Shown here: piece by piece, positions 7,361 to 22,767 of the stretch
How positions within the stretch are numbered: position 1 is the stretch's first letter
Layout: each line of letters opens with the position of its first letter
Notes under the pieces: model-generated
The model's database searches: none
What the model saw: only the letters and a program-made list of their open reading frames with translations
What the model was told of the DNA's origin: nothing
Assembly (NCBI RefSeq): GCF_000003605.2
Contig: NW_003151264.1
Span: 286,768-309,534 of the forward strand
From: Saccoglossus kowalevskii
Lineage: Eukaryota > Hemichordata > Enteropneusta > Harrimaniidae
Direction: 5' to 3'
DNA length: 22,767 nucleotides
Position numbers and translations under genes: made by a program

Positions 7361-7876
7361 TCAACATGAACAGCTAGTGCCATCACTGGTGGCGGTTGAC
7401 CTGCTGCACACAGCCGATCGTGAAGACGGTTCTCGGCCTATGCTGATAACCTTCGCACGTTTCATTTCTTTTGATCCATACTTGTGTAATACAGGATAAT
7501 CATTTGACATCATTGGTTTCTGACTTTTTAACTTGTGCGCTAATGTCATAAAAATCGCACTGACATTATCAACTTCGTTGTCGTCTTTTGCAGAGGTTTC
7601 GAATAGCGGCATCTGATTAGCATCAGCAAATTTCTGTGCCAAACTCGTCGCAACCGAAATCTTCTGGTTCATATCACACTTATTCCCCACTAAGATTCTT
7701 GGTATGTCCGGTGACAGTGAGTGCCTTTCACATTCTTCAATCCAGGTCGGCATGCCTTCGAACGTGTTCATTTTTGTCATATCATAAACAAAAACCACTG
7801 CATGCACGTTTCTGTAGTAATGCTGAACCATACTTTTACGAAACCTTTCTTGGCCAGCAGTATCCCAAAGTTGTAG
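7361..7876 (-). CDS. RAB33: Rab33 exon 2 (codons 81-251 and stop)
   Basis: The minus-strand acceptor TATATTGTAG precedes CTA CAA CTT TGG, giving [10 protein letters not shown] directly after ETIK of exon 1, as in the family. The first Met of the open frame (7831) is internal to the protein, not a start. The exon holds switch II, NKCD, ETSAK and the C-S-C prenylation end, followed by TGA (7363-7361). Confidence 0.96.
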
Positions 7877-10800
7877 CTACAATATAGAAATGAAAATTTA
7901 ATTAATATCCTTACAGTTATTTTTGATTGGTATCAAATTTAATAATTTAAAAAAATAAAAAAGAATGGCAATAACACATAGCATGGTATCCAGTCGACAT
8001 GTCATCCAAACATACAGTCTGGTATCCAGCCGACATGTCATCCATACATACAGTCTGGTATCCAGCCTACATGTCATCCAAACATACAGTCTGGTATCCA
8101 GCCGACATGTCATCCATACATACAGTCTGGTATCCAGCCTACATGTCATCCATACATACAGTCTGGTATCCAGCCGACATTTCATTCATACATACAGTCT
8201 GGTATCCAGCCTACATGTCATCTATACATACAGTCTAGTATCCAGCCTACGTGTCATCCAAACATACAGTCTGGTATCCAGCCGACATGTCATCCATACA
8301 TACAGTCTGGTATCCAGCCTACATGTCATCCAAACATACAGTCTGGTATCCAGCCGACATGTCATCCATACATACAGTCTGGTATCCAGCCTACATGTCA
8401 TCCAAACATACAGTCTGGTATCCAGCCTACATGTCATCCAAACATACAGTCTGGTATCCAGCCTACATGTCATCTAAACATACTGTCTGGTATCCAGCCT
8501 ACATGTCATCCATACATACAGTCTGGTATCCAGCCTACATGTCATCTAAACATACAGCTTGGTATCCAGCCTACATGTCATCTAAACATACAGTCTGGTA
8601 TCCAGCCTACATGTCATCCAAACATACAGTCTGGTATCCAGCCTACATGTCATCCAAACATACAGTCTGGTATCCAGCCTACATGTCATCCAAACATACA
8701 GTCTGGTATCCAGCCTACATGTCATCCATACATACAGTCTGATATCCAGCCTACATGTCATCTAAACATACAGTCTGGTATCCAGCCCCAAACATACAGT
8801 CTGGTATCCAGCCTACATGTCATCCATACATACAGTCTGGTATCCAGCCTACATGTCATCCAAACATACAGTCTGGTATCCAGCCTACATGTCATCTAAA
8901 CATACAGTCTGGTATCCAGCCCCAAACATACAGTCTGGTATCCAGCCGACATGTCATCCATACATACAGTCTGGTATCCAGCCTACATGTCATCCAAACA
9001 TACAGTCTGGTATCCAGCCTACATGTCATCCAAACATACAGTCTGGTATCCAGCCTACATGTCATCCATACATACAGTCTGGTATCCAGCCTACATGTCA
9101 TCTAAACATACAGCCTGGTATCCAGCCTACATGTCATCCAAACATACAGTCTGGTATCCAGCCTACATGTCATCCATACATACAGTCTGGTATCCAGCCT
9201 ACATGTCATCTAAACATACAGTCTGGTATCCAGCCTACATGTCATCTAAACATACATTCTGGTATCCAGCCTACATGTCATCCATACATACAGTCTGGTA
9301 TCCAGCCTACATGTCATCCAAACATACAGTCTGGTATCCAGCCTACATGTCATCCAAACATACAGTCTGGTATCCAGCCTACATGTCATCTAAACATACA
9401 GTCTGGTATCCAGCCCCAAACATACAGTCTGGTATCCAGTCGACATGTCATCCAAACATACAGTCTGGTATCCAGCCTACATGTCATCCATACATACAGT
9501 CTGGTATCCAGCCTACATGTCATCCATACATACAGTCTGGTATCCAGCCTACATATCATCTAAACATACAGCCTGGTATCTAGCCTACATGTCATCTAAA
9601 CATACAGCCTGGTATCCAGCCTATATGTCATCTAAACATACAGTCTGGTATCCAGCCTATATGTCATCTAAACATACAGCCTGGTATCCAGCCTATATGT
9701 CATCTAAACATACAGCCTGGTATCCAGCCTACATGTCATCTAAACATACAGTCTGGTATCCAGCCTATATGTCATCTAAACATACAGTCTGGTATCTAGC
9801 CTACATGTCATCTAAACATACAGCCTGGTATCCAGCCTACATGTCATCCATACATACAGTCTAGTATCCAGCCTATATGTCATCTAAACATACAGCCTGG
9901 TATCCAGCCTACATATCATCCATACATACAGTCTGGTATCCAGCCTATATGTCATCTAAACATACAGCCTGGTATCCAACCTACATGTCATCTAAACATA
10001 GTCTGGTATCCAGCCTACATGTCATCCAAACATACAGTCTGGTATCCAGCCGACATGTAATCCAAACATACAGTCTGGTATCCAGCCTACATGTCATCTA
10101 AACATACAGTCTGGTATCCAGCCTACATGTCATCCAAACATACAGTCTGGTATCCAGCCTACATGTCATCCATACATACAGTCTGGTATCCAGCCGACAT
10201 GTCATCTAAACATACAGTCTAGTATCCAGCCGACATGTCATCCATACATACAGTCTGGTATCCAGCCGACATGTCATCCATACATACAGTCTGGTATCCA
10301 GCCTACATGTCATCCAAACATACAGTCTGGTATCCAGCCTACATGTCATCCATACATACAGTCTGGTATCCAGCCTACATGTCATCCATACATACTGTCT
10401 GGTATCCAGCCTACATGTCATCCATACATACAGTCTGGTATCCAGCCTACATGTCATCCATACATACAGTCTGGTATCCAGCCTACATGTCATCCATACA
10501 TACAGTCTAGTATCCAGCCTACATGTCATCCATACATACAGTCTGGTATCCAGCCTACATGTCATCCATACATACAGTCTAGTATCCAGCCTACATGTCA
10601 TCCATACATACTGTCTGGTACAAATGTATCAAGCCTACATGTCATCTAAACATAGTCTGGTATCCAGTCCTTGGTTAGACATACTGGTATAAATAAATAA
10701 ATCAGTAAATCAACTGCACAGACTGTGCTCACATGATTGTAATAGCATGACCTTGATATTTTACAATATTATGAATGTGCTGTCAGAGATATATAGGTAA

Positions 10801-11663
10801 AACTGACTGAATAAACACAATTTTGAGAGGGTATGTTGCATTTATTACACTATAAATTTTTATACTGTTTGTCTTCACAATCAATATGAACTTTTCTTGT
10901 TTTCTTTTGATAAATAAGCATGAGGATGAAAAACATGTTTTTTATCTGTCCTTGCAAAATACTATCCATGTTTATGCATCTATTCTGTTCATTATCATTT
11001 TAATCCCATCCCTCGTTATTGAAAAATACAATACACACAGTCATACAAGTTCTACAAAAGGCATGGAAACATCTGTAAAAAAAAAAATCTACAAAAAACT
11101 AAATAGTTTTTACGATTGGATTTGTCTTTATAATCTCCGCACTAACAGGGTTTCCAAGATCTCTTTTTTTGAATATATTAAACAATGGCATTTAAAAATC
11201 GATTAATTAACTAAAATTAATTAAGTGGACAAAATTAAATCTCTTGTTCAATTATAAAATACGAGTCCTTGTTAACATATGAATACCGCTATAAACACCA
11301 ATCTCAAATTTAGGTTGTTGCACTTGAAATGGCGCAAAACTGAAATGAATGCATTGTTTATAACTGTTAAAAAAACGCAAATCAGATTGTTCATGTTTAC
11401 ATTGTTAGTAACGTTTGACTTACTTTTATTGTCTCACCGTTAACATCTACTGTCTTCTCGCGAAAATCTACACCTATCGTTGCCTCTGTCTTTTCGGGAA
11501 ACTTGCCTCCACAAAATCGAAATGTCAAACACGTTTTCCCAACATTTGAATCGCCAATAACAATGATTTTAAAAATTCGTGTTTGTTTTGAACTGCTCTC
11601 GATACTGCTCAATATATCTTCGCCACCGTCATCTTTTTTCATGCTCTCTTCTTTGTCTTCCAT
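7361..11663 (-). CDS. RAB33: Rab33-type small GTPase, complete two-exon gene (join 11663-11424, 7876-7361)
   Basis: The spliced protein is 251 residues, slightly longer than vertebrate Rab33B (about 229). Visible motifs are the P-loop GDSNVGKT at 37-44, switch I with ATIGVDF at 61-67, WDTAGQE at 84-90 with the catalytic Gln at 89, NKCD at 145-148, ETSAK at 173-177 and a C-terminal C-S-C (249-251) for double geranylgeranylation. Stretches such as [20 protein letters not shown] and [20 protein letters not shown] are characteristic of Rab33 rather than other Rabs. Rab33 proteins act at the Golgi, in retrograde Golgi traffic, and in autophagy through Atg16L1 (family knowledge). The start ATG (11663-11661) has A at -3 and G at +4. 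The acidic/Ser-rich residues 1-28 and the tail after residue 200 are the variable parts expected for a Rab. The gene is divergent from malate synthase, with 469 bp between start codons. I cannot separate a single invertebrate Rab33 from the A or B vertebrate paralogues. Confidence 0.96.
7877..7983. other. Rab33 intron, acceptor-proximal part
   Basis: AT-rich sequence between the Rab33 exon 2 acceptor and the edge of the minisatellite. It lies immediately 5' of the exon in transcript order and would hold the branch point. Confidence 0.6.
7984..10672. repeat. minisatellite, 36-bp unit, about 73 copies, in the Rab33 intron
   Basis: Head-to-tail units each contain CTGGTATCCAGCC, then ACATGTCATC and an ACATACAG block. 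Sites vary between units: CCGAC, CCTAC or CCTAT; CATCCAAA, CATCCATA or CATCTAAA; CAGTCTGG or CAGCCTGG. Three units have the same 10-bp deletion. The final unit (about 10618-10672) is degenerate. Because 36 is a multiple of 3, long spurious ORFs appear on both strands. There are no unique spacers. The array is expected to vary in length between individuals. Confidence 0.98.
10673..11423. other. Rab33 intron, donor-proximal part, no other feature seen
   Basis: AT-rich intronic DNA between the minisatellite and exon 1. A 106-codon plus-strand ORF here has low-complexity, AT-driven composition and no recognisable motif. Confidence 0.7.
11424..11663 (-). CDS. RAB33: Rab33 exon 1 (codons 1-80)
   Basis: The exon carries the N-terminal tail, P-loop and switch I. 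It ends after Lys80 in a phase-0 donor read on the minus strand as AAA|GTAAGT. Reading on into the intron would give only eight more codons, which do not match the family, so the donor fixes the exon end. Confidence 0.95.
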
Positions 11664-11765
11664 TTTCTCTGTGATTAATGCCGAGCTGCGTTATTCACGA
11701 CTGTTGTAGATCGACAGTGTTTGGTTAGCTTCGCGACAAACGCGTCGTGACAATAACTGCGAGTT

Positions 11766-11798
11766 TTACTTCGGTATATTATTGTCGCTTTCCGCCAT
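11766..11798 (-). other. upstream ORF, 10 codons, on the Rab33 side, not downstream of it
   Basis: The ATG inside the YY1-like site (AACATGG) opens a 10-codon frame ending in TAA on the minus strand. It lies 5' of the Rab33 start, so it could be a uORF if the Rab33 transcript begins upstream of 11798. Confidence 0.2.
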
Positions 11799-11802
11799 GT
11801 TT
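11792..11802 (-). promoter_or_regulatory. YY1-like site
   Basis: The plus strand reads CCGCCATGTTT, so the minus strand reads AAACATGGCGG, close to the YY1 core AANATGGCGGC. In animal promoters this motif often lies just downstream of the start site. Here that would suit the Rab33 direction. Confidence 0.45.
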
Positions 11803-11834
11803 GTTACTATTTTTAGAGAAGTTTCGTCGCTGGC

Positions 11835-11852
11835 GCCATGGCATGCCGGGAG
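11835..11852 (-). promoter_or_regulatory. ZNF143/Staf-like binding site
   Basis: On the minus strand the site reads CTCCCGGCATGCCATGGC. It fits the first 13 positions of the Staf consensus as I recall it (YWCCCRNMATSCM) and weakens after that. This motif is typical of TATA-less and bidirectional animal promoters. Confidence 0.5.
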
Positions 11853-11912
11853 CTATGCAGTCACCTGATATCTAAACAGCTGATACGACAACAACAACTT
11901 CGTTCTTGGTAA
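11838..11912 (+). other. upstream ORF, 24 codons, on the malate synthase side
   Basis: An ATG in the excellent context GGCGCCATGG opens a 24-codon frame that stops at TAA (11910-11912), upstream of the malate synthase start. If transcription begins upstream of 11838 it would act as a uORF. It is not in frame with, and does not splice cleanly into, the malate synthase coding sequence. Confidence 0.3.
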
Positions 11913-12025
11913 CTTGATTAAGAAAAAACACAATCTCGTGATAATCTAAATTTAATAACTATTCTTCTAATGTTAATGGGAAATATAACAAGTCGTCTAT
12001 TCTAGCTGTATTCCTCATATCCCTG

Positions 12026-12056
12026 AGGTCAGGTCACAGGAGGTCATCTGGGGTCA
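12026..12056 (+). promoter_or_regulatory. cluster of four nuclear-receptor half-sites with two DR4 elements
   Basis: AGGTCA occurs at 12026-12031, 12031-12036 and 12041-12046, and GGGTCA at 12051-12056. The last three are direct repeats with 4-bp gaps, giving two DR4 elements on a 10-bp period. The cluster ends 76 bp before the malate synthase ATG. DR4 is the classical arrangement for RXR heterodimers with LXR- or TR-type receptors; the receptor in this animal is unknown. It may lie in the promoter or the 5' UTR. Confidence 0.55.
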
Positions 12057-12132
12057 CAATACAGACATGGTGTGCATGGGTTAATCAATCGACAATAGTT
12101 GATGGTTTTTAGGTGACTAAACTACCATCAAA

Positions 12133-12240
12133 ATGTCTTCTCGGCTGGAAATAATAAAAGATCACTTTGTCACTCAGCGTTCTAGACATATCGTCGGTAC
12201 AGACTGTTCAAGTGAAAATCTGCCTCAAGCACTGAACCAG
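12133..12240 (+). CDS. malate synthase exon 1 (codons 1-36), with PTS2-like N terminus
   Basis: The start ATG has A at -3 and is the first Met after an in-frame TAA. The exon ends CAG|GTAAGG in phase 0. Residues 4-12 (RLEIIKDHF) fit the broad PTS2 pattern [RK]-[LVI]-x5-[HQ]-[LAF]. This exon encodes the leader ahead of the family's conserved N-terminal region. Confidence 0.85.
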
Positions 12241-15200
12241 GTAAGGGGTGGGCCATTTAAAATAAAGGGGAGTAAAGTTTTAAGGAAAAAGTGCCCTTGC
12301 TGATTTCTTTTGTTCAAATTGCATTCCCCAATGTTTTTAATGTTCAACCCTTGCAGAGACTGAAAACAATATATACAATCTTAATATCAATATCATAATT
12401 TAATTTTCACAATATTATATTGGTTTCTAGAAGTGCTCCATTTGTCTGTGTTTTCCACTTCAAAGAGCAGATCATTAGCAACCCAACATTAACAAATTAA
12501 TTCGTCCATATACTCTCCAGTCCGCACAATTCCAGAAGCCGTACCTAAACACGAATTGGTGACATCACAAAATACATGACCTTTATTCAGGGTCGTTTGT
12601 TCGGTATATACAAATTGGTATATACAAATTACAATAAAGATACTTTAAAAAATAAGACATTACAAATAAGGTGGAACAAATCATGTGACAATATAATGAT
12701 AAGTACAGTAATAACTTCTAGCTTAACAGTTGAACAAAATGATCATATAGATAAGATAAGATAATTCGTTATTACAACCATATTGAATGAATTTCAATTT
12801 AGGTGAATACAAATGTAATAAAGGTATAACAAACTATTCTAAAAAACTAAAACTATACTTATCATAAAGATACAGTAAAGAAATATTACTGGTACTTGAA
12901 CATAAAAATTAAAATATTATTATAGTCAGTGGGGTCACACCAAGGGTCCTGTGGTTGAAACTATGTCATGACGTGATGCACGAGGAAGACATCATTAAAT
13001 ACTCACAAAATCTCAATACAAAACGGGGTGGGGTGTGGGAGGTGTGGTCACGTATTACAATGTAGCAAACATGGGAAATGAAAAAAAAAACGCCTAATAC
13101 AAATGCCAAGGGCTTGAATTCTACTAGATAAACACTCGCCAGAACCAAACCAATCATTTTGGCTTTCCCATTCAACTAGTCGGGACATTAAAATACTGTA
13201 GAATACTATATTTTCACTTGGAATTTATTTTCGCTATTTTCGCTGAAGGGATGATTCAGTGAAAATAAAATCCAGCGAATATACTTTTTTTCCTATGTTT
13301 CACATTAAACTAATCAAAAATCAGTGAAAATAAATTCCATACAAAACGCCCTAAAAGCCTTTTCAGCGAAAATTAATTCCAGCGAAAATAAAGTATTCCA
13401 CAGTAGTTAGCAAAATGAAGACCACTCAACGACCAACGTCGTGGCGTGGTACACAAGCGTGCCATCGAGATAAAAACAAAATTAGCTTGAAAAAGCAGTG
13501 GTTTGAGTCCCGCTCAGAGAAAGTTTTTTTCACGAAAATGAGCCTCAAATATTTGTAGAGACATTTATTCTCTCAATTTAACAACTTGTAATGGTGGAAA
13601 TTAATTAAACAAGAGTTGTTTACATCAAAATAAGTATCAAATATTTGTTCATACTTTGATTCGGTTTAAAACCCATCCATGCCTGTCTTTTCTCACAAAC
13701 ACCAACTTGCAATGAAAATAATATTACAACAAATTGTTTGTGTGACTACCTACTTGGTTCAATGGATTTGTTCACTGTTAGCAATGTGAGAGATCGTTGG
13801 TTCAAATTTCTCTGGTTTGCAACATTTTTAAATGCTAGTGAGAACAGGTCTCCTGTAAATAAAACCTAAATCCTATATCATTTGTGTTAAGACACTCTTG
13901 GTACAGTGGACGAAACAGTGCGCTGGTAACTCAAAGGTTGCATGTTTGAATCACTGACTGGACACTCCTACAAAAGTTATGAAAAATGTTAAAGACATAT
14001 ACAGCTCAAAGTTTCAGTATATCAAGAACTCAAGTCAGCTCAATAACAGATATAATAATATTACAACAAATTATTTGTGTGACTACCTACTTGGTTCAAT
14101 GGATTTGTTCACTGTTAGCAATGTGAGAGATCGTTGGTTCAAATTTCTCTGGTTTGCAACATTTTTAAATGCTAGTGAGAACAGGTCTCCTGTAAATAAA
14201 ACCTAAATCCTATATCATTTGTGTTAAGACACTCTTGGTACAGTGGACGAAACAGTGCGCTGGTAACTCAAAGGTTGCATGTTTGAATCACTGACTGGAC
14301 ACTCCTACAAAAGTTATGAAAAATGTTAAAGACATATACAGCTCAAAGTTTCAGTATATCAAGAACTCAAGTCAGCTCAATAACAGAACAGTAGAATACT
14401 ACCTCCAATGAAAGCAAGTCAAAGCCGTGGAAGTACGAACAAGGTTACCATCTGCATGTCGCATGCACACCAACAGATTATTGCTGCTCTCCAAATGGGT
14501 CCCTTTTTTGTATTGACCCCCTAAGGTTTGCCCTTTCTAAATCTTACCCCCACAAATTGTATATCACCCTCTTTTAGAATGTATTGACCCACAAATTAAT
14601 GAATAATCATGACACTGCCATGTCATGAATAAATTAGCATAACTTAAAAAAAATTGCATAAAGTATAGGTACGTCTTCTGGAATTATGCCAATCTTTCTT
14701 ACAGCTTGATATTCCCGATGTGGAAGTGTTGGCTCCACCACAGGGTCTGGAAAATGAATTTAACACAATCTTCACAGTGGAGGCTGTTTCTTTCATTGCG
14801 GAATTAGTTCAACAATTTGACAAAAATGTAGACCAGGTAAGTGAATATTTTTATGAAGTGCATGTTTTTATTTAAAAGAAACATAACAACTTGCTGATTC
14901 ACAATGATACACTGGAAGGGTCTGAAAACTACACAGGTAGAGTATCGATCAATCAGCTAATGGTGTATTACCCTGAAAACTTTCACATGACTGTGTTTGT
15001 ATTTGTTGTCTTCAAAGTATAAAAACATCTCAACATACCTTGTATATATTTATAATCCAGCCTATATTTACTAATGTTAAACTATTTGTTTATATTAGAT
15101 GCTGCAAGCTCGCATTGTACGGAAAGCTAATTTAGATTCAAGTGGAGCTTTACCAGACTTTTTATCAGAATCTAGACACATTCGTGAAAGCTCATGGAAA

Positions 15201-18200
15201 GTCAAACCAGTACCACGTAGATTAATTAACAGACATATTGATTTAGGAGATGTGTCTCCCAGTAATGAGGTACACTTGAAGAATGCCTTGAAGTCAAAAG
15301 CACAGGCAATACAGGTATCACTGTAATCTAAATATTTTGAACTTCATTGTATAGAGCAATCAAGTTTGTTGTGTCGGTATAACTCTGTAACAGGAAAAAC
15401 AAACCACCAGACTAATAGTTGAAATCTGTGAAGTTATTTTTCATCCAAGAAGCAATAAAAAGCATTTTGATACAAGTACTCATTCATCAGAAATACCCCA
15501 ACACGAAGATATCAGTGTCTCACTTGTCAGCTATGCACAATACACAATCAATACAATAAAATGTATTCGGGCGCTGTAGAATATCATACCCGGTAATGAA
15601 TTATTTGTGATTGAAACTGGATGGCATAGTTTTGATGCACCTATCAAGAAGAGACCGACACTACCCAAGATCACATGCACCCAGTGTGCTACCAAGGATC
15701 AGATCAGCAACCCTTGACCAAGAGCCCAAACAACTGTATCAAAATATAATTACAAAACTGTCAAAATAGTGAATTACAAATCTTATAGTTGGAAATTACA
15801 ATGAAATATCAAACACTAGGTTTATCAAATAAAGAACAAATACATTACAACAAAAATAAACTGTTTCTCCAATACCATTCGCCCTTTGTGGTGACTTTGT
15901 AAGTAAATGCGAACTGTCTAACTGCTTCAAATTACTCAATAATTACATTTTGTACATAGAATTACAGGAAGTAGAAGTTTGGCAATGTAAGTTTGATAGT
16001 AATTCATTATTGTATTATTAAATGGCAATAGAGAGTTTAAGCGTACATAGCGGGAATGTAACATGTTGTTCTAATTTTGTTTGCATTATGTTCTTGGGTG
16101 TCAAAAAACTAATTAAGTACAAGCACCAACAACGTAACTGAAACAGAACCATGTCAACCGGTCTCTCATTGGTTAACCATAATTGACTATCCCATCAAAT
16201 TTGTTATGTCATTTCACGTTCGGAATCTGAATTTGACAGAGCCCTCGCTATTTCCATCCATTCTGTTGAGGTCCCAGGCCTGTTTGCCGAAACATCTTTC
16301 AGCAGATCAATGTCATGCGTTACCGTCCATCTAAATACATGTCTCTTCGCGGGAGTGGCCATTTTGAAATGTTTAAGAATAATTCATTTAGTTCCGTTTA
16401 AACTATAGTAGATGGTTAGTACACATCGCCTTTTGAGAAAGTGAACATAAATGCCCGGTGTTGTCTGCTTTGTTTACATAACGAGGTGACCAGTTGTGTA
16501 CGTTTTCAGTGGGTGTAAATATCAGCTAAAATGCAACCAATATTTCTCATTACACCATAAATATACAAAATCACTCTAATAAAAACGTTCTATCAATGTC
16601 AGTAAAAATTATTCACAATTGACAATGAGAAAAGCTCTCGGAAATCAACTACAAGTCAGTCACCTTGTTCACGTTCAAAACGACTGCCGTACGTACCTGG
16701 CAACCGATGACGTCATTGGTTCTCCATACAAATATTTATTTCCACATGTTACATCTCCATACATATATTTATTTCCACGTGTTACATCTTCATACATATA
16801 TTTCACTAGTACATGTATCTAGACTATGCAATACTGAGTTTTTAATGTACGTAATGAGCTCATTTGCATATTTGATTACTTTTTGTGTATTAACTGCATG
16901 TAATTTATATGATAATACTTATGATAATAATACTGTGCTTTAATTGTTAAAATTATTTACGCCGTAATCACATAAGGTTTCTGTTATGTGCTTTAGTGTG
17001 CAGACTAATAAGTATATTAACATAAAATCATGTTTAAGGTAAAGTGTGTGTTTTTCTTCCTAAACCCTTAATTGAAAACAATTGAAAATAAACTTTAATT
17101 TTCAGGTTGATTTTGATGATGGTCATTGTCCAAGCTGGAAGAACCAATTGTTAGGATATTACAATATCTATAACGTGGTTTATAATAAGTATCCTGATAT
17201 TGCAGCATTGTCCGATATTCCAGTTTTGATGTTAAGACCAAGAGCTTGGAACATGGTAGATCATGCAGTTATGGTAATTACTATATAGCAAAACATGCAT
17301 GTTTAATGTACTTTTCAATTCCCATTAAACAAAGTCCAAAATGGGGACTTATGCTTTGGTTTCTTTCTGTCCGTCTGTCCATTAGCAGACAAGACATAAA
17401 TCTGTTAACCTTTGACTACTAATGGTATTTTTAGTCTCAAAAAACACCTTGTGTTCTCCAAGCATGTCTCGACTGATTTTGATTGATGAACATCAATTTG
17501 TTTGTAATCTGATCCAGCAAATTAGCAAAACTAGTTACAACACAGCATCTTTTTGTGCATCGGTGGCATATATCATATTGGCTTAGATGGCCATGTTAGA
17601 TTTAACATTTCTCGGTCATACTCTGACCAATTTTGTTCAAGAAATTTGTCTTTCCTTAGTGGATATGTATTAACACGCTAGATACTCTTTCCCAATTTAA
17701 TTATAATCTACGTCTTTTATCGTTAATAATACATGTCCAGTTACTAAAAACTGGACGGGGACTATGCCATTGACAATGATTTGTTGATAAGTAATGGTCT
17801 CTTTGCATGTGATTTCACAGCTGTTACACCACAAGATGTTTCACATGTTATTTGTACTGTGGTTATTTTGATGGTAATCGCGTATGGCCAGTAATATCTG
17901 GGCAACAATATTTGAAATGACAAACCTACAAAAGCCTATCTTGTCTATGGAGGAAATCACTAATTTATCGTGTCAAGGTGTTACTTTCAAATACTGTAGA
18001 ATAATTTATTTTCGCTTAGAATTAATTTTCGCTATTTTCATTGAAGGAATGATTTAGTGAAAATAGAATCCAGCGAATATACCTTTTTATATGGTATATT
18101 TTACATTCAACTCGTTAAAAATCAGTGAAAATAAATTGCATACAAAACACCCAAAAAGTCTTTTCAGCGAAAATTTATTCCATCTAAAATAAAGTATTTT

Positions 18201-21200
18201 ACAGTAATCGATTGTTATTTATTTATTAGTTTGTTTGTTTGTTAATTAAAGGTTAATGGTAAAGAAGTAGCTGGTCCTCTATTGGATTTTGGATTATTAA
18301 TATACCATTTTGGACACATACTATTGGCCAATGAAAGTGGACCATTCTTTTATTTATCCAAGGTAAAGAATTCCTACATAATATTGTATAGAAAATAAAA
18401 ATCTCAAAGAAGAGGGATAAACAGACATGTAATTAAAATACAGAATCACAAAATTATTGAACCTGAATGAGTGTATGCTTTGATATGTGAGGAATTAAAA
18501 CTGACGTACAGTTAATATTTACTATTCATTTGTTTTCATGATTTTATTTATCCCAGTTATTACGATAGATGCAGTAATCTAAAGGAAAAAAAAATGGTAT
18601 ATATTTACTTTGCAGTTTTATCAATTTAAAATTGATAGCAAATTTGATATCAAAATTGCTTCCAGAATCTTCTCTAGCATAAATTGTTTTCAAAAAAAAA
18701 GGGAAAAACAGAAATTCAAATTTATTGAAGTTTATCATGAACCCTCTGAGTAACATTCACCAATGAGCGTATCGTGCATAAAATAATATCAATCGGTTTA
18801 ATTGATGAATCAATCAAGATGTGAAAAGTCTATCATATATGGTTAAAACAAGTGTGATACACAATTGAATACTGAGTGGTTTTTTTTCTAAGAATGCTTT
18901 TGCTGCAGAATAAAAAATTACCAGGTAGTCTATTGTGAATTTTCAAGGTGGATGTTCTTGCAAAGAACTCCACTATCATCTTGAAGTATTTCATTAGGAC
19001 TATATGTATGTGACATGCTGTGCCCTCACAGTTTAGAATCAGTTTATCAACAGCCAATCAGACTACTTCTTTCATTTTCATGCTTGGCCAAGCTATCAAA
19101 ACAAATATGTCTGCGCACCGTGGAAGCTGTGTTAGCTTGGATGTCGATGATGTAAAAGATGGAGACATCAGAAATGCAAAATTTCAAGTCCTTTTTAACA
19201 GTCATTTGTAACAAAGCTTTCTATTGGTCTGTAAACCTTCTATCATGCAACCATGTGACATACATGGTTATGAATAGCGTTACCGCACAACATCGTGCAG
19301 GCAGATGATGGGGTGTTCATAAATTTAAGAATATTTTTTTCAATGATTTTTGCATCTTATTGATATTTATTTATTAGTTAGAAGGTCATAAAGAAGCCAG
19401 GTTATGGAACAAAGTATTTGATTGGTCTCAACAAAAGGTTAGTATTCAATAATTGTAATATTTGTTATTATTCCTAATTAGTAATTAGTAATTAATTTAC
19501 ATCCTCATCTGTAACTCTATTTGTTTACAAATTTATCAATTTTATTGGAATATATTTATGAATATTGATTAGAATAAAGCATAAAAAAACAAGTGATGAT
19601 GCATTCAAAATGGGTAAATATATGTATTTGACTGGCCAATTATTGCATTCAATCTTCCTGGTGTAATTAACATTCAGTGATAGAATTCATGTTGTAGTAG
19701 AATCACATAGACATTGGGTGACCAAAATTGAAAAAAAAAAAAACATTTACACTTTTATTTTTTACTGTAAGATGAGGTGTGGTACACATACTTTAATACT
19801 TTTATTATACATCATTTACAAATGTGTATAATTATGCTCATAGATGTTAAACAAATGTTAAAGGAAGGAATCCAGAAAATATTTGGACTTAAGTGACTGA
19901 AGTACTTACAGTTATTGTATATTGTCTGTGAATGAAATAGTTATGGGGTTGGGTCTAAGTTTGTGGTTTGTCTTAAACATTGAGTGTTTACTGTCCAGGG
20001 TTTTATTCTTCACATTAGATAGAATTAATTCTTATGAAATTGCGAATAACCACCACAAAGGTATCCAAGTCTGTACAATGTGTGATTACAATTATGTTTT
20101 TATCCCTTTATGTACTTATCAATATGTTTGATTTTCAGTTAGAACTTCCCCATGGCTGCATCAAAGCATGTGTGTTGATTGAAAATATCTTGTCTTCTTT
20201 TGAAATGCATGAGATATTATATGAACTGCGTGACCATTCTGCTGGTTTAAACTGTGGCATATGGGACTACTCTGCTTCATTTGTTAATAAATTTGGTAAG
20301 CAGTAACATGCAACAAGCTATTTTGATTGTATTTAGCAACTAGGAATACAGTTCAATGACTAGTGATAACTACCAAATAACAATATAGTTTGATAAAAAA
20401 TGATAACTAACAACTAGTAGGGGCTTAATGAGAAGTAACTAACAATTAACAGTAAAGCTTGAGGACTAGTGACTAGTGATAACAAGCAGTATACTATCAA
20501 CTAGCAACATTTGATGTCTCATAGTAACTAACAATTAGCAGGGTGATGATGACTGGTAACTTACAATAAAGTTTGATGGCTAGTGATAACTACCAAGCAA
20601 CTGTAGCATTTGATGAGTAATGACTAGCAACTAAAATAGAATGTGATAACTAATGGTAACTGGTGGTGTTTGATGAGTGGTAAATATCAACTAACAAAAG
20701 AATTTTATTTCTAGTGGTAACGAGCAACAAGTATCAATAGTTTTTCATTCCAACTTCATACATCATATTATATGATCAAATAGATTTCTTTTGCTGGTTA
20801 CCATGGTGATGAAATGAGAAATCCTTGTGTGTATTGTATGTAATAACAGCTGATATGAATGGTTGAATGATTTTATAGAACAGAATTGGTCAGTTCAATA
20901 ATTTAAAAATTAATAATTACTTTGCAGGTCATCGTAGTGCCTTTCTCTTGCCAGATAGAAATAAATATGTCAACATGGAAAAACACTTCCTTAAAAGCTA
21001 TATGGATCTTGTGGTTCAGACGTGTCATCGCCGTGGTTGCCATGCAACAGGTGGCATGTCTGCATTGTTATTACCCAATGAAAATTCAAAAACTTATCGG
21101 GAAGTACTTCAGAAAACCACAAGGTGATTATAGATGTATAAAATACTTTAGAAAAGCAGTTATTGTAGTATAAAATATTTTTTTTTTATTTCAAATACTG

Positions 21201-22634
21201 TTTTTGTAGTAAAAAAAAATGTTGATACTTTTCTTTGTTTTTATTAGTGGCAAATTACGAGAAATTGAGGCAGGTGTTGATGGATTTCTGGTGTATGATA
21301 TTAGACTCATTGATCATATGCATAAGGTAAGACTTTATTTTTTTTAAGACTTCAAATGTTTGGTTATTTGTTGTTGTTGAGTAAAGCCATGTTTGGTGTT
21401 AACATTTTTGTTAATGATTGACACATGTTTTAGTTCCACTCAAATCCAAATAGAAATTGTTTCCTCAACAATGTATGATTTTTTGTTTGTAACATATATT
21501 GATATTTGTAATTTGAAAATGTCATTTTAAAGATCACATGTTACTTCAATATATTAATACAATAATACTTTATTATCACTGTAAAGAAATTACAATCTTT
21601 TTTGAGCTCTGAGTAATAAAGTTAAATTAATAAACATGAACACAAATTAATTATAGTATAAAAAAAAACAAAGAAAGTTTCTAAATGCTTCTTTTCAAGT
21701 TTGCATTATCAATGTATTGGATTAGTGTTTTCAGTAAATGTTTATCTGATGCGTTCATGATATAATATATTATTATTATGGCCATGCATATCAATGTTCT
21801 GTTACAGTGATTGTAAGTTCACAGTTGATATCTGTTTAATTTTTAGTTGTTTGATAGACATGCACCAACCGTGAATCAATTATTTGTCAATCGATCTGAT
21901 GTTAAAATCACTGCACAGGATTTATTGGTTATGCCAAGGGTGAGTGTTCAAAGCAATCTAAATTCTGCATTTCTGTTCAATTGAAGCTACTCATGCTGTA
22001 TTATGTATTAGTAACAAATATTTTGGTTGACGCCAGCATAGCGCATTAAACTGCCATTTGATAGGAAGATGGCTGCACAGCCCTGTCATGTAGTCCCAAA
22101 CATGAATATGACTTCTGTGGCAAAAATGCACTATGTCAGCACTAGCACTTGCAATTGCCCCCCCCCCCCCCACCCTCCCCCCCCCACCCCAAACAAAAGT
22201 CAGGAGAGACAATAGTGACATTCAATGTCCGGAACTGTCGCCTGGCACAAAAAAAAACAAATTGGAGTAAAAAGAAATCTGCCAAAGTACATTTCAAATT
22301 TCTTGGTATGATTTATCAAAGCTGTCACAGGAAATTTGTTATTACTTTTACTTTTAAAACATGGACACATTGATCAGTAATCTTGCTGCTGTTGGTGATG
22401 CGCCATTAATTTATCAAGATTTTGTAAAAATCAAGACTTGCAAGGAATAAATAAGCTGGACAATACTTATTTGTTGTAGCTGTGATATTATAACCTGAAA
22501 TTTGAAAAGAAATATAGGATTTTTTGAAATGCTCTGAATAATAAGATTTTTTCCTCAACAGGGAGGAGTGACATTTGCTGGACTATTACATAACATAGCG
22601 GTCGGTGTCCTTTTCATCTATTCATGGCTTCGAA
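12133..22634 (+). CDS. malate synthase, divergent animal form; 11 exons visible, 3' end beyond window
   Basis: Join 12133-12240, 14705-14836, 15099-15314, 17106-17273, 18252-18362, 19378-19437, 20139-20295, 20928-21123, 21248-21326, 21847-21939, 22562-22634: 464 codons plus one base. Malate synthase condenses glyoxylate with acetyl-CoA to malate. The whole length follows the A-type family: [30 protein letters not shown] (Arg198, catalytic), [32 protein letters not shown] (Glu280, Mg ligand), [14 protein letters not shown] (296-309, family signature; Asp308, Mg ligand), [11 protein letters not shown] and GVDG. The catalytic-base Asp normally lies after the segment W-L-R-G-x-G-C-V, hence past the edge. 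Bacterial and plant enzymes have about 530-560 residues, so some 70-90 are missing from view. Departures: the usual W-V-A-H-P reads L-V-Y-D-I (397-401) and the signature ends Y-S-A. The N terminus fits a PTS2. An in-frame TAA (12118-12120) just upstream supports the start. Confidence 0.93.
13196..13403. mobile_element. Tc1/mariner-type MITE, copy 2 (malate synthase intron 1)
   Basis: A 208-bp copy in the same orientation as the one near 2.8 kb and closely similar along its length, including the internal CAGCGAATATACTTTTTTTC. TA flanks both ends (13194-13195 and 13404-13405). Confidence 0.85.
13441..13530 (+). repeat. tRNA-like Pol III unit 1
   Basis: An A-box-like GTGGCGTGGTACA begins at 13441, and a near-perfect B box GGTTTGAGTCC lies at 13500-13510. 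A run of seven T (13524-13530) follows as a possible Pol III stop. The acceptor stem does not pair, so this is a tRNA-derived repeat and not a tRNA gene. Confidence 0.45.
13754..13809 (+). repeat. tRNA-like Pol III unit 2 (second copy at 14091-14146)
   Basis: The A box TTGGTTCAATGG (13754-13765) fits TRGYNNARYGG, and the B box GGTTCAAATTT (13799-13809) starts exactly 45 nt later, the spacing of a real tRNA. The stems do not form a tRNA. Confidence 0.45.
13899..13952 (+). repeat. tRNA-like Pol III unit 3 (second copy at 14236-14289)
   Basis: The A box TGGTACAGTGG (13899-13909) fits the consensus and GTTTGAATC (13944-13952) matches the B-box core. The spacing again is 45 nt. CAAAGGTTGCATGTTTGAATC reads like a T arm of a SINE head. 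Confidence 0.5.
14705..14836 (+). CDS. malate synthase exon 2 (codons 37-80)
   Basis: Bounded by TTACAG and CAG|GTAAGT, phase 0 at both ends. It encodes [14 protein letters not shown] and the helix [14 protein letters not shown], which match the conserved start of A-type malate synthases. Confidence 0.93.
15099..15314 (+). CDS. malate synthase exon 3 (codons 81-152)
   Basis: Bounded by TATATTAG and CAG|GTATCA, phase 0. It encodes [16 protein letters not shown], the family's L-P-D-F-L-x-E-[ST]-R-x-I-R-E block, then [14 protein letters not shown], which corresponds to the usual I-N-A-L-N-S segment. The first Met of the exon is internal. Confidence 0.95.
16204..16362 (-). CDS. antisense exon-like ORF with the start of a Myb/SANT-like domain (partial or broken)
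   Basis: The minus strand reads 52 codons from ATG (16362-16360, context CAAAATGG) to TAA (16206-16204), with an in-frame TGA just upstream of the ATG. The segment [16 protein letters not shown], then W35-M-E-I-A-R-A-L, has the Trp spacing (23 residues) and D-L-L-K-x-V pattern of the Myb/SANT-like domains common in invertebrate expanded families. The third helix (normally R-x-C-R-[DE]-R) is missing, so this is a first exon, a truncated copy or a relic. A weak donor (GAAC|GTGAAA) precedes the stop. The stretch is richer in GC and CpG than its surroundings. It is nested inside the malate synthase gene on the other strand. Confidence 0.45.
   Translation of the reverse strand: MATPAKRHVFRWTVTHDIDLLKDVSANRPGTSTEWMEIARALSNSDSEREMT
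16693..16719. promoter_or_regulatory. RFX-like / CRE / CCAAT cluster, possible promoter of the antisense ORF
   Basis: TGACGTCA (16708-16715) is a perfect cAMP-response element and shares a base with ATTGG (an inverted CCAAT box, 16715-16719). GTACCTGGCAAC (16693-16704) resembles an RFX X-box with a good right half. The cluster lies about 330 bp upstream of the antisense ATG at 16362. Confidence 0.4.
16724..16806. repeat. 33-bp tandem repeat, about 2.5 copies
   Basis: Units begin at 16724, 16757 and 16790 and share CATACATATATTT and TTCCAC, then GTTACATCT. The second and third units are closer to each other at the start. Confidence 0.85.
17106..17273 (+). CDS. malate synthase exon 4 (codons 153-208), catalytic Arg
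   Basis: Bounded by TTTTCAG and ATG|GTAATT, phase 0. [13 protein letters not shown] corresponds to the family's A-D-F-E-D-S-x-x-P-T-W, and LRPRAW to R-P-R-G-W, placing the catalytic Arg at residue 198. Gly and His of the usual P-R-G-W-H are Ala and Asn here. Confidence 0.95.
17274..18251. other. malate synthase intron 4
   Basis: A 978-bp phase-0 intron. It holds MITE copy 3 near the acceptor. The stretch around 17330-17560, with TTTCTGTCCGTCTGTCC, looks like an old interspersed repeat of the kind common in invertebrates, but I cannot classify it. Confidence 0.85.
17994..18204. mobile_element. Tc1/mariner-type MITE, copy 3 (malate synthase intron 4)
   Basis: A 211-bp copy, more diverged than the other two (for example an ATTTTACAG right end), with TA flanks. 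It ends 47 bp before exon 5, so it is close to the splice acceptor. Confidence 0.82.
18252..18362 (+). CDS. malate synthase exon 5 (codons 209-245)
   Basis: Bounded by TTAAAG and AAG|GTAAAG, phase 0. It encodes [20 protein letters not shown] and GPFFYLSK, matching the family's S-L-F-D-F-x-L-Y-x-F-H and G-P-Y-F-Y-L-P-K segments. Confidence 0.94.
18363..19377. other. malate synthase intron 5
   Basis: A 1015-bp phase-0 intron, AT-rich, with no mobile element recognised. A plus-strand frame around 19100-19211 has codon-like composition, but no family match and no convincing splice sites. Confidence 0.85.
19378..19437 (+). CDS. malate synthase exon 6 (codons 246-265), 60-bp micro-exon
   Basis: Bounded by TTATTAG and AAG|GTTAGT, phase 0. 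[14 protein letters not shown] corresponds to the family's M-E-S-H-x-E-A-R-L-W-N-x-V-F, so this short exon must be included for the protein to align. Confidence 0.94.
19438..20138. other. malate synthase intron 6, nothing else seen
   Basis: A 701-bp phase-0 intron, AT-rich, with short TAATTAG repeats near its donor and an A-run at about 19732-19743. Confidence 0.88.
20139..20295 (+). CDS. malate synthase exon 7 (codons 266-317 plus one base), Mg ligands and signature
   Basis: Bounded by ATTTTCAG and TTTG|GTAAGC, ending in phase 1. It holds VLIEN (Glu280) and the signature [14 protein letters not shown] with Asp308. PROSITE expects Y-[LIVM]-F after the Asp; here Y-S-A follows, so a strict signature scan could miss this gene. 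Confidence 0.96.
20320..20745. repeat. degenerate tandem repeat in malate synthase intron 7
   Basis: The intron (20296-20927) is built largely of scrambled copies of CTAGTGATAAC, AACTAACAA and GTTTGATG, recurring every 50-60 bp or so. It is an old, diverged tandem array. The period is irregular and the edges are approximate. Confidence 0.6.
20928..21123 (+). CDS. malate synthase exon 8 (codons 318-383 in part)
   Basis: The acceptor TTTGCAG joins G|GT to make Gly318. The exon encodes [10 protein letters not shown], then [11 protein letters not shown] (357-367), the family's A-x-G-G-M-A-A-x-I-P block. It ends AG|GTGATT in phase 2; Ser383 is completed by exon 9. Confidence 0.94.
21248..21326 (+). 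CDS. malate synthase exon 9 (codons 383-409), altered W-V-A-H-P region
   Basis: Bounded by TTATTAG and AAG|GTAAGA, leaving in phase 0. [19 protein letters not shown] aligns with the family's K-x-R-E-x-x-x-G-H-D-G-T-W-V-A-H-P-x-L. The Asp of G-x-D-G is kept, while Trp, His and Pro are replaced by Leu, Asp and Ile. Confidence 0.92.
21327..21846. other. malate synthase intron 9, nothing else seen
   Basis: A 520-bp phase-0 intron, AT-rich, with no repeat or regulatory motif that I can support. Confidence 0.85.
21847..21939 (+). CDS. malate synthase exon 10 (codons 410-440)
   Basis: Bounded by TTTTTAG and AGG|GTGAGT, phase 0. It encodes [12 protein letters not shown] and [14 protein letters not shown], matching the family's P-N-Q and I-T-A-x-D-L-L segments. 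Confidence 0.93.
21940..22561. other. malate synthase intron 10
   Basis: A 622-bp phase-0 intron. Apart from the C-rich tract at 22158-22190 I see only ordinary AT-rich intronic DNA. Confidence 0.85.
22158..22190. repeat. C-rich tract (possible G-quadruplex or i-motif)
   Basis: Runs of 14, 3, 9 and 4 C are separated by single A or T bases. The minus strand therefore has four closely spaced G-runs. Confidence 0.8.
22562..22634 (+). CDS. malate synthase exon 11 (codons 441-464 plus one base), last visible exon
   Basis: The acceptor CTCAACAG precedes [19 protein letters not shown] and WLR, matching the family's T-E-E-G-x-R-x-N-I-x-V-G-x-x-Y-x-x-x-W-L-R. It ends CGAA|GTGAGT in phase 1. The remaining C-terminal part lies past the right edge. 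Confidence 0.9.
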
Positions 22635-22669: not shown

Positions 22670-22767
22670 GTATGCTAAGTAAGATGGTGTGAGTCCCATG
22701 CAATGTATGTTAAGTAAGATGGTGTGAGTCCCATGCAATGTATGCTAAGTAAGATGGTGTGGGTCCT
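22670..22767. repeat. 35-bp tandem repeat at the window edge, at least 2.8 copies
   Basis: Units start at 22670, 22705 and 22740, share TAAGTAAGATGGTGTG and differ by single bases. The array lies in malate synthase intron 11 and continues past the right edge. Confidence 0.95.

Follow-up and report, generated by a model that had tools for sequence, protein, structure and literature searches.

A malate-synthase-like gene of Saccoglossus kowalevskii with a possible PTS2-type peroxisomal signal in a separate first exon

Sequence analysis of a 22,767-nucleotide stretch of the Saccoglossus kowalevskii genome (here called the window; it spans bases 286768-309534 of contig C4133, the assembly totalling 572 Mb in 4830 contigs) revealed a malate-synthase-A-like gene of which the short first exon encodes, directly at the N terminus, a nonapeptide resembling a PTS2 peroxisomal signal (Table 1). 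We consider it plausible that this nonapeptide, RLEIIKDHF, is a working PTS2 on a malate-synthase-like protein and put the probability at roughly 0.4, about equal in odds to a coincidental match. If the signal is real, an animal malate synthase would be peroxisomal by a route that is unreported in the literature we found, and the animal gene would be tied to the algal malate synthase NgMLS2 of Nannochloropsis gaditana; if the motif is coincidental, this is an ordinary animal malate-synthase-like gene.

Table 1. Positions of the exons of the malate-synthase-like gene, of sequence elements in its first exon and of the candidate first exon of PHYH. Positions refer to the window unless a stretch is named.
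Feature	Position	Strand	Basis or remark
PTS2-like nonapeptide RLEIIKDHF, residues 4-12	12142..12168	+	codons 4-12 of ATG 12133
Cys25, then Ser26; candidate processing Cys	12205..12207	+	sequence; 13 residues past motif
Exon 1	12133..12240	+	ATG, in-frame upstream stop 12118, donor GTAAGG, coding score; 36 codons
Exon 2	14705..14836	+	opens the conserved malate synthase domain
Exon 3	15099..15314	+	
Exon 4	17106..17273	+	holds RPRAWN, R196 and R198
Exon 5	18252..18362	+	
Exon 6	19378..19437	+	
Exon 7	20139..20295	+	putative Mg ligands E280 and D308; I306
Exon 8	20928..21123	+	M361
Exon 9	21248..21326	+	L397, D400, I401
Exon 10	21847..21939	+	
Exon 11	22562..22634	+	last visible exon; ends WLR plus 1 base, donor GTGAGT
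PHYH candidate first exon, 24 residues, PTS2 RLHILSRHL	L101:4913-4984		model by eye

The gene has 11 visible exons, which together give a stop-free reading of 464 codons; all 10 introns are of the GT...AG type and exon 11 ends at a GT. A Pfam search of the visible protein identified the domains MS_N (PF20656, 2.4e-11) and MS_TIM-barrel (PF01274, 7.3e-70), and the PDB matches were two bacterial malate synthase A structures, 3cux (6e-95) and 3cuz (8.2e-76), with the alignment starting at residue 54. The NCBIfam equivalog malate_syn_A has a cut-off of 594.5 bits; the visible protein, from which profile positions 413-511 are absent, scored 380.6. A genome search with the TIM-barrel family scored three candidates and yielded two matches, both inside this gene, which by this family search alone appears to be the sole copy.

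Upstream, and head to head with the malate-synthase-like gene, lies a Rab33-like GTPase gene on the minus strand (7361-7876 and 11397-11690; the best PDB match of frame 7361-7876 is Rab-33B, 1.7e-60). The two start codons are about 470 bp apart and the genes perhaps share a promoter. A tandem array of about 74 copies of a 36-bp unit (7984-10620) separates the two Rab33-like frames. The window further contains three copies of a MITE-like element of about 220 bp that is rich in TTTTCGCTG (2701-2933, 13190-13404 and 17990-18206, ends placed by eye), two of them in introns of the malate-synthase-like gene; inverted-repeat arms measure 30 bp (90%) in the first copy and 31 bp (71%) in the second, and none are reported in the third.

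As the original prediction held, RLEIIKDHF fits the broad PTS2 pattern [RK]-[LVI]-x5-[HQ]-[LAF]; it lies within the first ~40 residues. It is the sole match in the 464 visible residues, and its position 5 is an Ile (I8), a large hydrophobic centre. The broad pattern ending in [LAF], in which Phe is allowed, is the form given in PMC7710942. The commonest PTS2 form is described as R-[LVIQ]-x2-[LVIH]-[LSGA]-x-[HQ]-[LA], and the original consensus ends in Leu or Ala (PMC4585086). RLEIIKDHF deviates from the commonest form at two of the nine places, K9 (position 6) and F12 (position 9); that form collects the frequent variants and is not demanded by the broad definition. The nonapeptide further contains two acidic residues (E6 and D10), and its helical moment is 0.15, with 0.05 for residues 1-17, as compared to 0.22 for RLQVVLGHL.

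Two residue backgrounds were used to calculate how often the broad motif would occur by chance in the first 40 residues: in 1.1-1.6% of proteins, or in 0.3-0.5% if a hydrophobic centre is included. Shuffling exon 1 produced the motif in 1.5% of 200,000 trials. For 25,000 proteins, about 275-400 broad matches are expected by chance. The nonapeptide appears to exceed chance modestly and, for a protein from an often-peroxisomal class, is no more than suggestive. A coincidental match, which we hold to be about as probable as a functional signal, would make exon 1 an extension without PEX7 function, the protein being either cytosolic or directed by a PTS1 encoded further downstream, as predicted for zebrafish Mlsl. 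Such a coincidence agrees with the chance level of 1-2% per protein, or hundreds of matches per proteome, and with the fit to the broad form only; the occurrence of the match at residue 4 of a protein from such a class, and in a separate first exon like those of PHYH in this genome and of the Nannochloropsis PTS2 genes, argues against it.

The C terminus of the protein bears on the same choice. It is out of view, as had been noted originally, the window stopping at a 3.3-kb run of N that occupies positions 236 to ~3528 of the adjoining downstream stretch (L003). The C-terminal exons most likely fall in this gap, and a search for the MS_C domain (PF20659) gave 0 candidates across the 572-Mb assembly. 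A short frame just past the gap was considered as last exon and rejected, being by eye unlike a malate synthase C terminus. With the final exons hidden by N, a PTS1 may be encoded there, which leaves room for the coincidental reading. The originally suggested contrast with plants, where malate synthases usually rely on a C-terminal PTS1, would apply only if the gap contains no PTS1. Animal malate synthases are described as PTS1-carrying (PMC7710942), and a PTS1, ARL, is given for zebrafish Mlsl (PMC8919083). According to the latter source the distribution is patchy, with predicted PTS1 sequences in teleosts and marsupials and none in amphibians, monotremes and cartilaginous fishes. Two other features were seen around the gap: a 35-bp repeat at 22670-22766 runs into the N stretch (L003:236-3528), and the frames L003:6774-7073 and 9593-9910 on the plus strand, past the gap, resemble by eye parts of a leucine-rich-repeat protein.

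Exon 1 joins exon 2 in phase 0. The Pfam search of the visible protein found no family in exon 1 and the PDB alignment begins only after it, in accordance with the proposal that the motif lies at the N terminus ahead of the conserved enzyme. The coding score of exon 1 is +3.84; among 929 open intronic windows of 108 nt, 4.4% attain this value. The true start could nevertheless be in another, unseen first exon, leaving 12133-12240 unused: exon 1 is predicted from sequence, is separated from exon 2 by 2.5 kb and has no family match, and the interval 11700-14700 contains three other phase-0 starts with a GTAAG or GTGAG donor. These, however, are all located within a 337-bp duplication, and exon 2 contains no Met, whereas exon 1 provides an ATG, a donor, the phase and a coding score; we regard a different first exon as very unlikely. 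The duplication itself is a tandem one in intron 1 (13717-14387), with copies that are 99% alike.

The relation of exon 1 to the enzyme domain was examined by comparison with the best 80 of at least 579 confirmed bacterial loci, obtained from a scan of the genome_contigs collection with a three-row alignment. Two peptide patterns, among them GLNCG[RI]WD, served to select the rows, so conservation at those places is inflated; all 80 were retained, including one (L065) with an ORF of just 354 aa. Among these best 80, the tblastn match starts at residues 34-58 in 70 cases and at residues 14-33 in the other 10, never inside the motif. The bacterial frame opens less than 58 residues before the equivalent of I58 in 68 of the 80, and with an upstream stop at that distance these frames cannot carry an extension of the length of exon 1; the other 12 could be longer. 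A Met is present in 73 rows, the farthest lying 18-38 residues before I58 in 66 of them, where starts are judged from Met positions only and GTG and TTG starts are ignored. A PTS2-like motif was found in none of the 80 N-terminal stretches, and on this ground the idea that the motif is a bacterial ancestral trait was rejected. Because the bacterial matches start past the motif, most of the bacterial frames are too short and the motif is absent there, exon 1 is, as judged from these alignments, an addition to the enzyme, the domain of which opens with exon 2. Scans of the viral_contigs and genome_contigs collections with the Saccoglossus protein itself returned no relative. A similar layout is described for many predicted PTS2 proteins of Nannochloropsis, where a short first exon encodes the nonapeptide and the domain starts from exon 2 (PMC7710942).

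An N-terminal addition of this type might also be a mitochondrial or ambiguous presequence, in which case the enzyme would be mitochondrial or dual-targeted. Exon 1 has basic residues (R4, K9, R16 and R18) as well as hydroxylated ones, and PTS2 signals and presequences are similar helices (PMC4585086). The same source describes presequences as almost devoid of acidic residues, whereas E6, D10, D24 and E28 are present here, and the helical moment is low; we consider such a presequence very unlikely. A Cys-containing cleavage motif downstream of PTS2 has been described (PMC7710942). We attach little weight to Cys25 as a possible processing site, because a Cys is easily encountered by chance and NgMLS2 is imported without one, according to that paper.

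A functional PTS2 would depend on the corresponding import route, which according to PMC7710942 is not used by Caenorhabditis elegans and Drosophila. A search of the Saccoglossus genome with Arabidopsis PEX7 gave 13 matches, of which the best were long WD40 frames elsewhere. A PEX7-like pair of exons on contig C2109, ranking 7th and 11th of the 13 by E-value, was selected for its colinearity and for the highest identity among the 13 matches, 42% in one exon. In the two colinear exons 40 of 88 residues are identical to Arabidopsis PEX7, including HHTEF. When each exon was searched against the PDB, the matches were unspecific WD40 proteins, and none of the 60 listed (of 447 and of 139) was named PEX7. 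We therefore regard PEX7 as probable in this genome.

A classical PTS2 cargo was found on contig C1700, where two exons of a phytanoyl-CoA hydroxylase (PHYH) gene (L101:5474-5632 and L101:8500-8712) match human phytanoyl-CoA dioxygenase (2a1x) best, with 1.6e-5 and 2.6e-29, respectively. In a model made by eye, the candidate first exon (MSAEERLHILSRHL...; MSAEERLHILSRHLRQPEGYHANI) precedes both of these and can join the first of them in phase 0; a PDB search with the 24-residue first exon gave no match. In this model, the short first exon carries a textbook PTS2, RLHILSRHL, and the arrangement is like that of the malate-synthase-like gene in its short first exon, the nonapeptide near the start and the phase-0 join. 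The PEX7-like exons together with a PHYH carrying RLHILSRHL indicate that the PTS2 route probably exists in this genome. The existence of the route favours the PTS2 reading of RLEIIKDHF, and the presence in the same genome of a strict-form cargo weakens it, since the PHYH nonapeptide agrees with the strict common PTS2 form and RLEIIKDHF does not. The proposed use of a PTS2 by the malate-synthase-like protein thus stays plausible, with the route probably present, but the nonapeptide, having Lys and Phe as its sixth and ninth residues, fits the broad form only.

The active site was assigned by alignment, using the residue numbering of PMC3112382 and PMC3832036, and conservation is again given for the best 80 of at least 579 bacterial loci. 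Both Arg residues of the RPR motif are kept (R196 in 80/80 and R198 in 79/80), one of the two presumably being the catalytic Arg; the Mg ligands are taken to be E280 and D308 (79/80 each), and W307 and M361 are kept as well (79/80 each). The catalytic Asp belongs to the C-terminal domain, outside the visible assembly. The motif Trp-x2-His-Pro, however, is replaced by Leu-x2-Asp-Ile, with L397 at the place of a Trp (79/80), D400 at that of a His (80/80) and I401 at that of a Pro (79/80). In addition, I306 replaces an Arg (80/80) and A199 a Gly (80/80). L397 is taken as the counterpart of Trp257 in Haloferax and Trp534 in Escherichia coli isoform G, mapped by motif and not by structure; the spacing from the preceding pocket residue to the Trp is 26 in both of those enzymes in the numbering of PMC3112382, versus 36 here. 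This Trp adjoins the aldehyde carbon of glyoxylate, and the Trp and a Pro crowd the methyl group of pyruvate (PMC3112382, PMC3832036). A Leu at position 397 could give room for a larger acceptor, or activity could be lost. Since animal homologues are stated to retain the conserved motifs (PMC1630690, data not shown there), the Trp-to-Leu change in the pocket may be special to this lineage. The altered pocket makes it doubtful, in a way that can be tested, whether the enzyme uses glyoxylate alone.

The original prediction would also place a step of the glyoxylate bypass in the peroxisome, and this part is not supported. No candidate for isocitrate lyase (PF00463) emerged from an exon-by-exon search of the 572-Mb assembly, in which gaps are possible. 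Malate synthase occurs in many animals, whereas isocitrate lyase is reported only for nematodes and cnidarians, and the conservation of the latter enzyme is stressed (PMC1630690). Because isocitrate lyase was not found despite this conservation, we consider the bypass reading unlikely, and the loss of Trp-x2-His-Pro points in the same direction. A glyoxylate cycle in this animal was rejected on account of the missing isocitrate lyase candidate. Malate synthase may also use glyoxylate derived from purine breakdown (PMC8919083, PMC3743077).

If RLEIIKDHF is a functional signal, the short exon-1 helix would be recognised as a weak PTS2 by PEX7 and the co-receptor PEX5, which would bring the malate-synthase-like enzyme into peroxisomes in its folded state, with the stretch between the motif and exon 2 serving as a linker that is perhaps cut near Cys25. 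As isocitrate lyase was not found, the enzyme would operate outside a glyoxylate cycle. It may condense acetyl-CoA with glyoxylate of other origin, for example purine breakdown, or, in view of the Trp-to-Leu change, with a bulkier 2-oxoacid. A more far-reaching and unlikely possibility is that PTS2 was the earlier targeting signal in the clade of animal-type malate synthases, retained by this animal and by NgMLS2, whereas fishes and marsupials exchanged it for PTS1. In this view the imported Saccoglossus enzyme, with its changed pocket, would join acetyl-CoA in the peroxisome to some 2-oxoacid that is used instead of glyoxylate or in addition to it, without taking part in a glyoxylate cycle.

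Among related proteins, the bacterial malate synthases A (3cux and 3cuz) share with the Saccoglossus protein the MS_N and MS_TIM-barrel domains, the RPR Arg pair and the putative Mg ligands. They differ in lacking the exon-1 extension and in having the near-invariant Trp, His, Pro and Arg that are replaced here. Zebrafish Mlsl is likewise an animal malate-synthase-like protein of uncharacterised function, and the accessible text on it mentions the predicted PTS1 and no PTS2 (PMC8919083). What role malate synthase plays in animals that lack isocitrate lyase was raised as a question in 2006 (PMC1630690), when most of the animals surveyed lacked the lyase, as appears to be the case here, and in 2022 the animal malate-synthase-like proteins were still called functionally not characterised (PMC8919083). 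Judged by titles and abstract openings, the open-access literature, with subscription papers mostly outside, holds no report of a PTS2 in an animal malate synthase.

A PTS2 malate synthase as such is already known from the alga Nannochloropsis (PMC7710942). The N-terminal domain of NgMLS2, with the motif RIx5HL at residues 10-18, confers peroxisomal targeting, as established with fluorescent fusions and immunogold labelling, and NgMLS2 clusters with the animal malate synthases (PMC7710942). As in the Saccoglossus protein, a PTS2-type nonapeptide lies close to the N terminus of this malate synthase and is encoded in the first exon (PMC7710942). The algal RIx5HL is canonical and was tested in cells, whereas the RLx5HF of Saccoglossus is of the broad form and predicted from sequence; NgMLS2 is described without a downstream Cys, whereas the Saccoglossus protein has Cys25, and Nannochloropsis additionally possesses an isoform with a PTS1 (PMC7710942).
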